A model generated the notes under the pieces. That model saw nothing but the letters and a program-made list of their open reading frames with translations, was not told the origin of the DNA and searched no databases. Made by a program: the position numbers and the translations under genes. From Motilibacter deserti (GTDB lineage Bacteria; Actinomycetota; Actinomycetes; Motilibacterales; Motilibacteraceae): a DNA stretch of 64,000 nt. This document shows, piece after piece, positions 55,390 through 58,564 of the stretch; position 1 is the stretch's first letter, and every line of letters starts with the position of its first letter. The stretch covers positions 142,121-206,120 of the forward strand of contig NZ_JAANNP010000003.1 in the NCBI RefSeq assembly GCF_011250635.1, in the 5' to 3' direction.

Positions 55390-55947
55390 ATGACGGGGGA
55401 GCAGCCCGACCTCGTCGAGCAGCAGGGCGTCGGGGTGCCCGACGCCCTGGGCCGGCTCTGGACCCCGCACCGGATGGCGTACATCCGCGGGGAGAACAAG
55501 CCGTCCGCCGACGGCGCGCAGGCCTGCCCCTTCTGCCACATCCCCTCGCTGTCCGACGAGGAGGGGCTGGTCGTCGCGCGCGGCGAGCTCGTCTACGCCG
55601 TGCTCAACCTCTACCCCTACAACGCCGGGCACCTGCTCGTGGTCCCCTACCGCCACCTGCCCGACTACACCGACATCGACCTGGCCGAGACGGCCGAGCT
55701 CGCCGCCTTCACCCAGGCGGCGATGCGCACCGTCCGGCTCGTCAGCGGCGCACAGGGCTTCAACATCGGCATGAACCAGGGCAGCATCGCGGGCGCGGGC
55801 ATCGCCGCGCACCTGCACCAGCACGTCGTGCCGCGCTGGGGCGGGGACACCAACTTCATGCCCGTGGTGGCCCACACGCGGGTGCTCCCGCAGCTGCTGG
55901 GCGAGACGCGTCGGCTGCTCGCCTCGGCGTGGCCCGGCGACGCCTGA
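55390..55947 (+). CDS. HIT family nucleotide-binding protein
   Basis: 185 residues. The HIT motif HLHQH at 141-145 and zinc-type CPFCH (C46, C49) mark an AP4A phosphorylase-like HIT hydrolase. NIGMNQGSIAGAGI is a family segment. The ATG at 55390 is 16 bp after thrS, so they are probably co-transcribed. Its last 92 bp are overlapped by the convergent HTTM gene. Confidence 0.88.
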   Translation: MTGEQPDLVEQQGVGVPDALGRLWTPHRMAYIRGENKPSADGAQACPFCHIPSLSDEEGLVVARGELVYAVLNLYPYNAGHLLVVPYRHLPDYTDIDLAETAELAAFTQAAMRTVRLVSGAQGFNIGMNQGSIAGAGIAAHLHQHVVPRWGGDTNFMPVVAHTRVLPQLLGETRRLLASAWPGDA

Positions 55948-56764
55948 GGCCGGTGACGGCAGGGACGATCCGCTCGAGAGGCAGGAACGCCGCCAGGCAC
56001 ACGACCAGCGGCAGGAAGTGGATGCGCGTCGCGGCCCAGGTCGCCAGGTGGAAGCCCACGAGCACCGTCGCCCCGACCGCCTGCCAGCGCGCACGCACGA
56101 AGAGCAGTGCAGGTGTCAGGGCCTCCATGACGAGGACGCCCCACTGGCCTGCGCGCAGCAGCCACGGGAACTGCGCGAGCACGTCGCCGAGCTGCGTGCC
56201 GCGCCGCGACATCGCCCAGGCGAACGTGGCCCCCGTGGCCCATCCCCACCCGCCGAAGCGCACCTTGGCGACGGCGCTGAGGAAGTAGGTCGCGACGCAG
56301 GCGACCTGCACGGCGCGGAGGGCGAAGCCGGCTGCCGCGCTCGTCCGCGGGTCGCGCAGCCCGGCCGGCCCGACGGTCGCCACCGCGAAGAGCCCGACGA
56401 CGAGGGCGAAGTGGTCGTGGTCGATCTTGCCGTAGGAGAAGGCGATCGAGACCCAGTCGAGGAACGCGACGGCGAGGACGGCGCCGGCCAGCCGGGGCAG
56501 CCGGCCGACGGCCACGACCAGCGCGGCCACGACGAGCACGGCGGCCAGGCCCTCGACGTACGCCGGGCCCGGCGCCGGCAGGTCCAGCGCGCGCCGCAGG
56601 AGCAGCGGCTGGTAGAGCTCGTCCGGCCCCTTGGCGTGCGGCACCACGTCCGCGGTGAGGAGGGCGATGTCGGCCAGCACGAAGAGGGCCAGCAGCCGCC
56701 GGACGACGGCCAGCCGGGCGAGCGGCACGGCGGGCGCCAGCCAGCGCTCCAGCCGGCTCGTCAC
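55856..56764 (-). CDS. HTTM-domain membrane protein 1
   Basis: 302 residues with about eight hydrophobic helices, of the HTTM domain class (related to vitamin K gamma-carboxylase and to SdpB). AFSYGKIDHDHFALVVGLF and ACVATYFLSAVAKVRFGGW are family features. The C-terminal 45 residues are basic and poorly conserved. GTG start overlapping the stop of its small partner (GTGA). The 3' end overlaps the HIT gene by 92 bp. Second half of a duplicated two-gene cassette. Confidence 0.8.
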   Translation of the reverse strand: MTSRLERWLAPAVPLARLAVVRRLLALFVLADIALLTADVVPHAKGPDELYQPLLLRRALDLPAPGPAYVEGLAAVLVVAALVVAVGRLPRLAGAVLAVAFLDWVSIAFSYGKIDHDHFALVVGLFAVATVGPAGLRDPRTSAAAGFALRAVQVACVATYFLSAVAKVRFGGWGWATGATFAWAMSRRGTQLGDVLAQFPWLLRAGQWGVLVMEALTPALLFVRARWQAVGATVLVGFHLATWAATRIHFLPLVVCLAAFLPLERIVPAVTGLRRRRATPRRAADASRPAAAGAPACGPPRA

Positions 56765-57204
56765 GGGGCGCCCCACGCGGCCACCGGCTCCTGGACCGGG
56801 TCGAGCAGGCGGCCGCCGCGCATCCGCGTGACCCGCTCGAGCAGCTCGACGCGGACCAGTCGCGGGCGGTCGGGATGGAGCGCGGCCCAGGCGTCCGCGA
56901 GCGCCGCCAGCCGCTCGGGCCGGGACCGGAAGCCCTCCAGCTGGCCCTCGACCTCGGCCCGGTTCATCCCCACGGTCTCGTTGGTCAGGGCGAGCTCGCG
57001 GCGGTCGCCGCGCGCGTCGACCGCCATCACGAAGGCCGCGCGCACCTCGCCGTCGGGGTCGGTGCGGAAGGCGAACTGCGACATCGGGGCGAACGGCCAG
57101 TGGTCGTCGACCCCCCGCAGGCTGCCGTAGGCCGCCCCGGCGGTGACGGCCGCCAGCGCCACGCCCCGCCACAGCAGCGCACGGCGGGTCAGCGGGAGGT
57201 CCAC
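56761..57204 (-). CDS. Small single-pass partner of HTTM 1
   Basis: 147 residues: an N-terminal transmembrane helix (RGVALAAVTAGAAYGSL, about 13-29) and an extracytoplasmic domain with DDHWPFAPMSQFAF and ALTNETVGMNRAEVEGQ. The paralogue at 58094-58564 shares DDAWPF and LTAENVGMNRAEAEGQ. This family is not recognised; in size and partnership it resembles SdpA of the Bacillus SDP system. GTG start at 57204, 16 bp inside the HTTM 2 gene. Confidence 0.7.
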   Translation of the reverse strand: MDLPLTRRALLWRGVALAAVTAGAAYGSLRGVDDHWPFAPMSQFAFRTDPDGEVRAAFVMAVDARGDRRELALTNETVGMNRAEVEGQLEGFRSRPERLAALADAWAALHPDRPRLVRVELLERVTRMRGGRLLDPVQEPVAAWGAP

Positions 57205-58106
57205 GCCGGCCTTCCCCCGGCCACGCGTCCGCGGGCCCGCCGCACGACGGCGTCGAGCCGCGGCGCCAGCCGCTCCAGCGGCAGGAAGGCCGCGAGGCAC
57301 AGGGTGTGCGGCCAGAAGAAGATGCTCGTGCCGGCGTACGTCGCGATGTGGAAGGCCAGGAAGAACGCAACGATCCGGGCGCGCCAGCGCGGCCCCACGA
57401 AGAGCACGACGGGGGAGAGCAGCTCGAACGCCACGATCACCCACTGGCCCGCGTGCAGCGTCCACGGGACGTCGAGCATCCATTCGGAGAGCACGGTCCC
57501 GCGCCGGTCGACGGCCCGGGCGAGCGTGGCCGAGTTGACCCACTCCCAGCCCCCGAACCGAACCTTCGCCCAGGCAGCGTAGAAGTAGGTCGCCACCACC
57601 GCGAGCTGCACGGTGCGCAGCGCCCACCCGGCGGCCTCGGACGGACCGCCTCCACGCAGCCGTGCCCGCCCGACCGTGGGGAGCACGGCGAGGGCGACGA
57701 GGAAGGCGAACCGGTCGTGGTCGACCTTTCCGTAGGAGAAGGCGACGACCTGGTACTCCGCCCAGAGCAGCAGGACGGCCGTCCCGAGCAGCCGCGGCGC
57801 GCGCCCGCTGAGCGCCGCGAGCGCGAGCAGGGCCGCACCCCACTTGCAGACGAGGACGAGGGCCTCGGTCGGCACCGGCAGGTGCAGCAGCCGGCCGACG
57901 AGGAGCGGGGAGTAGAGGTCGGCGTTCGCCGCGCTGCGCGTGTCGCCGATCGTGTGCAGCAGCAGGACGTCGAGGGGGACGAACAGGTAGACGAGGACGC
58001 GGAAGACCGCGACGCGCTCGAGCGGCACCGCGGGGAGCAGCCAACCCCGGGCGCGATCGAGCCGGGCCGGCGCGGGCGCTGCCGTCGGGGAGGTCACCGT
58101 TCCCAT
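57189..58106 (-). CDS. HTTM-domain membrane protein 2
   Basis: 305 residues, paralogous to HTTM 1, with the same order of helices: VAFSYGKVDHDRFAFLVAL, VVATYFYAAWAKVRFGGW, and a FHIATYAGTSIFFWPHTL segment near the end. HTTM proteins often work with a second protein; here its partner is the upstream gene. ATG at 58106 overlaps the partner gene by 13 bp. The stop overlaps the next cassette. Confidence 0.8.
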   Translation of the reverse strand: MGTVTSPTAAPAPARLDRARGWLLPAVPLERVAVFRVLVYLFVPLDVLLLHTIGDTRSAANADLYSPLLVGRLLHLPVPTEALVLVCKWGAALLALAALSGRAPRLLGTAVLLLWAEYQVVAFSYGKVDHDRFAFLVALAVLPTVGRARLRGGGPSEAAGWALRTVQLAVVATYFYAAWAKVRFGGWEWVNSATLARAVDRRGTVLSEWMLDVPWTLHAGQWVIVAFELLSPVVLFVGPRWRARIVAFFLAFHIATYAGTSIFFWPHTLCLAAFLPLERLAPRLDAVVRRARGRVAGGRPAWTSR

Positions 58107-58564
58107 GTCGCGAGCACTTCCCTTCGCACCTCGCCGGTCGGCCGCCGGTCCTGCAGCACCGTCGCGACGCGGACGAGCCGCACCGCGGCCCAGGCCGGGT
58201 CCGCCGGGTGCAGCCGGGCGTGGGCGTCGGCGAACCGGGCGAGCAGCGCCGGATCGGCGACCAGCCGCGGCTGCTGGCCCTCCGCCTCGGCGCGGTTCAT
58301 CCCGACGTTCTCGGCCGTGAGCGGCGTCTCGGCCCACGTGCCGTCGGCCGTCTGCCGCTCGAGCGTGAGGACGGTGACGACGCCGGAGGGGTCGGTGCTG
58401 GTGGCGTACATCCGGAAGGGCCCGAACGGCCAGGCGTCGTCCTGGCCCCAGAGCGTCCCGGCCGTGAGCAGCAGGGCGCCGACGGCCGTCAGGGCCACGC
58501 GCCACGACACGGCCGTCAAGGAGAGCCGGCCCTCGGCTGCTGGCACCACTGGACCCCCCGGCAC
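58094..58564 (-). CDS. Small single-pass partner of HTTM 2
   Basis: 156 residues; N-terminal transmembrane helix (VALTAVGALLLTAGTLW) and an extracytoplasmic region with DDAWPFGPFRMYA and LTAENVGMNRAEAEGQ, shared with the paralogue. GTG at 58564. First gene of the four-gene minus-strand unit and divergent from the GH15-like gene, 54 bp away. Confidence 0.7.
   Translation of the reverse strand: MPGGPVVPAAEGRLSLTAVSWRVALTAVGALLLTAGTLWGQDDAWPFGPFRMYATSTDPSGVVTVLTLERQTADGTWAETPLTAENVGMNRAEAEGQQPRLVADPALLARFADAHARLHPADPAWAAVRLVRVATVLQDRRPTGEVRREVLATWER

Follow-up and report, generated by a model that had tools for sequence, protein, structure and literature searches.

A tandem pair of small membrane protein-HTTM modules of two ancient types in Actinomycetes, with an HTTM subunit related to vitamin K-dependent carboxylase

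Four overlapping minus-strand genes at positions 55856-58564 of a 64,000-nucleotide stretch of the Motilibacter deserti genome (the window) form two modules, each made of a single-pass membrane protein and an HTTM protein. Their arrangement raises the question of what such a module does, and whether it is to be compared with the SdpA-SdpB pair of SDP toxin maturation or with vitamin K-dependent carboxylase (VKGC; GGCX in the numbering used here). The locus was analyzed at the level of gene layout, distribution, sequence profiles and predicted structure.

Gene layout, pairing and the two types

The type I module consists of the partner protein small-I (58094..58564, minus strand; 156 residues) and HTTM-I (57189..58106, minus strand; 305 residues, about eight transmembrane helices). 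The type II module consists of small-II (56761..57204, minus strand; 147 residues) and HTTM-II (55856..56764, minus strand; 302 residues). Small-I begins with GTG; the actual start codon may be a few codons downstream. Small-I and HTTM-I overlap by 13 bp counted from the ATG of HTTM-I, or by GTGA if the fourth codon is the start; HTTM-I and small-II overlap by 16 bp, and small-II and HTTM-II by GTGA. The original prediction, made from the window sequence, of a cassette in two copies with these overlaps, and with the motifs DD.WPF and GMNRAE common to both small proteins, was confirmed. The modules are flanked by thrS and a HIT-domain gene, both convergent, by a divergent GH15-like gene, and by an EF-G-like gene and a pgsA-like CDP-alcohol phosphatidyltransferase gene. 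Between HTTM-II and the HIT-domain gene there is a 92-bp overlap of the 3' ends (55856-55947), and a shorter convergent overlap of the same kind was seen in another genome (G003, locus L178).

In a sample of 395 genomes of the class, the small protein and HTTM-I had reliable matches in an identical set of 50 genomes (Fisher p = 1e-64, uncorrected for relatedness). The 56 small-protein genes and 56 HTTM genes in these genomes formed 56 adjacent same-strand pairs, with gaps of -9 to +195 bp between the matched stretches. The few remaining matches in the 395 genomes were near the threshold (G232, G367 and G258) or truncated at the edge of a contig (G039). When named genomes were scanned with the HTTM protein only, 361 relatives were obtained, and among the best 80 of these 361 a small-protein gene lay upstream in every case. 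Co-occurrence of the small protein with HTTM genes elsewhere, the lack of which had been named among the grounds for refuting the original prediction, was observed in both surveys. The module is compact, strictly paired and widespread in culturable actinomycetes such as Knoellia, Phycicoccus, Blastococcus, Modestobacter, Micromonospora and Kineosporia; further hosts in the HTTM scan include Pedococcus, Geodermatophilus, Klenkia and Allonocardiopsis. Searches of plasmids with the small protein and the HTTM protein gave no match for either. So far as seen, the two-gene module is confined to Actinomycetes.

Small-I and small-II are 40% identical (BLASTP, E = 1e-18), and HTTM-I and HTTM-II are 48% identical over 269 residues (E = 3e-72). 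A motif in the small protein, P[FW][RK]M[YF] in type I and [PS][ML].Q[YF] in type II, divides the modules in two. A maximum-likelihood tree made from the HTTM proteins alone, with the small proteins left out, separated exactly these motif types, with one change on the tree and a branch support of 97. Each type forms a branch of its own that extends over many families. One module of each type is present in the window. G003, G004, G157, G050 and two Kineosporia species likewise carry the two types together, often at the same site, next to thrS-HIT and EF-G/pgsA. The two types are therefore ancient paralogues that were retained with their own partners. Of the proposed duplicated cassette the two copies stand, but they are anciently diverged; a recent tandem duplication was ruled out by the HTTM tree. 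The match between HTTM type and partner type is consistent with, but not proof of, a specific complex of HTTM and small protein, because the paired genes are always adjacent and matched inheritance alone would also yield it.

The HTTM protein and its relation to vitamin K-dependent carboxylase

The sole sensible Pfam match was HTTM (PF05090), with E = 5e-6 and 26.7 bits for HTTM-I and E = 1.7e-4 and 21.7 bits for HTTM-II. Both scores fall slightly short of the Pfam cut-off of 27.7 bits, which several close relatives of the two proteins pass. An AlphaFold2 model of HTTM-I (pLDDT 93, pTM 0.89) was used in a fold search of the PDB, where the 16 best matches were all GGCX (probability 1.00 in 14 cases), with TM scores up to 0.63 and E values from 5e-3. 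In hhalign comparisons the HTTM profile scored 84 against bacterial VKGC (E = 4e-11, 251 columns; comparison set drawn from other Actinomycetota), 48 against SdpB (E = 6e-6) and 37 against DUF5819-type HTTM proteins, with unrelated controls at most 19. A relation of the HTTM subunit to VKGC is supported by these results. Both kinships named in the original prediction were found, that with SdpB being the more remote.

K218 of GGCX serves as the base for deprotonation of vitamin K hydroquinone, and the substrate Glu is coordinated by H160 (PMC12589487). By alignment, the equivalents of K218 and H160 are K181 (codon 57564-57566, minus strand) and H130 (codon 57717-57719, minus strand) in HTTM-I, and K167 (codon 56264-56266, minus strand) and H116 (codon 56417-56419, minus strand) in HTTM-II. 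K181 and H130 are invariant in all 63 module HTTM sequences and align with a lysine and a histidine that are invariant in 8/8 bacterial VKGCs. Alignment of one bacterial VKGC (L169) to the GGCX chains of the PDB placed the same residues opposite K218 and H160. SdpB (6/6) and DUF5819-type HTTM proteins (20/20) keep the lysine, but the position of H130 is occupied by Gly or Asp (Gly in SdpB). The window HTTM proteins thus have a fuller GGCX-type active site than SdpB, with both residues that GGCX needs for coupling quinol oxidation to Glu carboxylation. The equivalents of GGCX W223 and F286 are likewise invariant in the module HTTM proteins. Equivalents of K181, Y174, W189 and H253 are shared by every HTTM group tested, SdpB included. 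R183, R201 and R202, which lie close to or within the loop following K181, are invariant in the module HTTM proteins, and R201 and R202 are not conserved in other HTTM groups.

The likeness to VKGC comprises the HTTM fold and the equivalents of K218, H160, W223 and F286; VKGC also scored highest among the profiles, and no other protein was matched in the PDB fold search. The module and VKGC differ in several respects. The module HTTM proteins have about 300 residues and no fused lumenal domain, whereas VKGCs have 430-760 residues, and a separate single-TM partner without a family name is encoded. GGCX N159 is replaced by Asp, and nothing in the module HTTM chain corresponds to the GGCX linker residues Y395 and M401/M402. 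The VKGC lumenal domain (PF22777) is absent from HTTM-I, HTTM-II and the whole genome. There is no known Glu-rich substrate, and no VKOR was found in the genome of the window, so that some other reductase would have to serve a vitamin K epoxide cycle. Full-length VKGC with both HTTM and PF22777 does occur in some Actinomycetota lineages outside the family of the window (L169-L176), and an LPRTG-like anchored protein is encoded directly upstream of L169.

The small partner protein

Small-I is composed of an N-terminal transmembrane helix (residues 16-39), a WPFGPFRMY segment and an extracytoplasmic beta-helix-beta-beta domain, as judged from its sequence and a confident AlphaFold2 model (pLDDT 91). 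Small-II has WPFAPMSQF in place of WPFGPFRMY. The order of parts in the family is one transmembrane helix with arginines on its N-terminal side, the motif D-x-x-[WF]-P-[FL]-x-P, and a strand-helix-strand-strand domain. E95, P46, A92 and P105 are invariant, and 66 of the 83 family members have no cysteine. Neither singly nor as an 83-member family did the small proteins match a Pfam or NCBIfam family; the AlphaFold2 model had no significant fold match in the PDB, and PDB sequence searches with queries A3 and A2 gave no match. The family, described earlier as lacking a name, is new to the databases searched. Annotation of HTTM loci should accordingly track the partner as well as the HTTM protein.

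The small-protein profile had no significant hhalign match to SdpA, to DUF5819 or to the VKGC lumenal domain. The comparison with SdpA, for which 10 SdpA sequences and 38 unrelated control families were used, gave a score of 14, with a control median of 12 and a top control score of 20. The score against the lumenal domain was 14.7, and unrelated controls reach 20. By eye the small protein resembles that domain (a strand, a helix with DP..LL..A, a strand and ...DGR), but with the score inside the control range the protein was rejected as a homologue of the lumenal domain, and the likeness was taken as functional analogy only. By anatomy, its architecture and position are those of a detached TM9-plus-lumenal domain, a part that is missing from the module HTTM protein. 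With neither significant similarity to the lumenal domain nor a significant fold match in the PDB, the notion of a split VKGC is based on position and the order of domains.

A relationship of the small protein to SdpA, suggested in the original prediction, was not recovered by the profile search. SdpA has conserved cysteines, in contrast to the 66 cysteine-free small proteins. Pfam SdpA (PF17418) matched 0/83 small-protein members and nothing in the genome of the window. SdpC (TIGR04032) was likewise absent from the genome, the best hit (E = 0.58) being below cut-off and away from the module, and the NCBIfam SdpB model matched 0/19 module HTTM members at E <= 1. Sdp loci on plasmids contain SdpA and SdpB, in most cases together with an annotated SdpC precursor or SdpI. 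Neither SdpC nor SdpI is encoded beside the module, and there is no room for a toxin precursor adjoining it, in line with what had been noted earlier. From the control-range SdpA score and the absence of SdpA and SdpC from the genome, we conclude that the module is not an SDP toxin-maturation locus.

A possible two-subunit enzyme, its alternatives and candidate substrates

The reading that we prefer, and to which we give about an even chance, is that the window encodes two ancient paralogous copies of a two-subunit, VKGC-like, menaquinol-dependent membrane enzyme in which the small protein replaces the missing lumenal domain. Catalysis would fall to the HTTM protein, which is related to the transmembrane half of VKGC/GGCX and probably binds menaquinol in its pocket. 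The invariant lysine (GGCX K218) would deprotonate the menaquinol, and the resulting base, together with the invariant histidine (GGCX H160), would activate, and probably carboxylate, an acidic side chain in a protein that has been exported, at the outer face of the membrane. The small protein would stand in for the C-terminally fused TM9 and lumenal domain of VKGC, dock on the HTTM subunit and hold the substrate, and each HTTM type would work with its own small-protein type.

Carboxylation is the favoured but unproven reaction of this two-subunit enzyme on exported proteins. The full claim of a split vitamin K (menaquinone)-dependent carboxylase, with an HTTM subunit and a separate substrate-binding subunit in two ancient types, carboxylating exported bacterial proteins, is possible, if rather doubtful. 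Against the preferred reading, the conservation of the lysine and the quinone pocket is shared with SdpB, whose chemistry is to our knowledge not known to be carboxylation. Vitamin K-dependent carboxylase activates human clotting factors; if exported proteins are carboxylated by the module, it would be a two-part form of the clotting-factor carboxylase and a route to new bacterial Gla-type proteins.

We consider it unlikely that the module is a menaquinol-dependent HTTM enzyme of a non-carboxylating kind, in which the lysine/quinone half-reaction would drive dehydration, oxidation, epimerization or cleavage of an exported peptide. Such an enzyme would fit the four residue positions common to all HTTM groups and the lack of a detected VKOR, and HTTM proteins appear to modify exported peptides in both SDP and linaridin maturation. 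For the linaridins, which are RiPPs, an HTTM protein (e.g. crdG) has a partner encoded with it; this HTTM protein is assumed to contribute to maturation by acting on the peptide, by an unclear mechanism (PMC9927463). That partner is an alpha/beta hydrolase within a RiPP cluster, and no RiPP genes are present at the window module. The histidine at the position used for Glu carboxylation in GGCX speaks against a non-carboxylating enzyme, being invariant here and in VKGC and absent from SdpB and DUF5819-type HTTM proteins.

A non-enzymatic membrane complex, acting for example in quinone sensing or in lipid or envelope homeostasis tied to the adjoining phosphatidylinositol locus (thrS-HIT-module-pgsA), appears distinctly improbable. 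The module does lie repeatedly between HIT and pgsA, in the family of the window, G157, G050 and Kineosporia, but it is located elsewhere in Knoellia, Micromonospora and Geodermatophilaceae, its catalytic-type residues are invariant, and it runs opposite to thrS and HIT and is thus outside their operon. Very improbable is an SDP-like system in which a divergent SdpA and its HTTM protein mature a secreted toxin encoded elsewhere: the order and overlap of the genes match SdpA-SdpB of plasmid Sdp loci, both partners are single-TM and the best local hhalign path sets GMNRA against GLDRR of SdpA, not significantly, but the profile, cysteine and genome evidence given above stands against it, and VKGC outscores SdpB as a match to the module HTTM profile.

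For the two-subunit enzyme, an indirect pointer to substrates came from the sister cassettes of DUF5819 (PF19136) and HTTM, in which a single-TM partner is likewise encoded upstream of HTTM, often in tandem copies. Nine such loci were examined (L220-L228, in G123, G153, G114, G105, G137, G022, G059, G030 and G023). In 7/7 non-Streptomyces genomes, from three families, the cassettes adjoin genes for sortase-anchored surface proteins, all seven with LPxTG/LAxTG and mostly of the 'choice-of-anchor G' type (NF033766), mostly bearing acidic repeats, for example (EVDGT)n or (DA)n. The two loci of family f19, inferred to be probably Streptomyces, had no surface-protein gene. Some genomes encode one surface protein per tandem cassette; surface protein and cassette alternate in L228, and two surface proteins are followed by two cassettes in L220 and L221. 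For the window, the proposal in the original prediction that the two copies serve two substrates is possible. These surface proteins are candidate HTTM substrates, and by analogy they may point to acidic exported substrates for the small-HTTM module. The window module differs in that it does not adjoin such proteins; in addition, the partner families are unlike by profile, and DUF5819-type HTTM proteins lack the histidine. A scan for acidic proteins and LPxTG near small-HTTM modules gave nothing consistent and no linked substrate gene. PF19136 was found neither in the genome of the window nor among the 83 small-protein members, and a search of a limited collection of papers for DUF5819 and 'choice-of-anchor G' returned nothing.

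Other partners and neighbours were also recorded. Two divergent HTTM genes have an upstream single-TM partner of another kind, with WPLSAFRLFS in L148 and FEQGWGMFVFRP in L139, which suggests that actinomycete HTTM genes as a rule have a single-TM partner upstream. A gene for a DCC/DUF393-like thiol-disulfide oxidoreductase adjoins the small-HTTM module in several families (L104, L084, L103, L079, L233 and L235), and in Niallia (L167) a DUF393 gene lies ahead of SdpA-SdpB as well. Next to the module in L046, and in 13 other loci from Blastococcus or relatives, is a gene for a CrtO/CrtI-like FAD-dependent oxidoreductase; in family f20 (L229 and L230) such a gene lies on the opposite side of the module.
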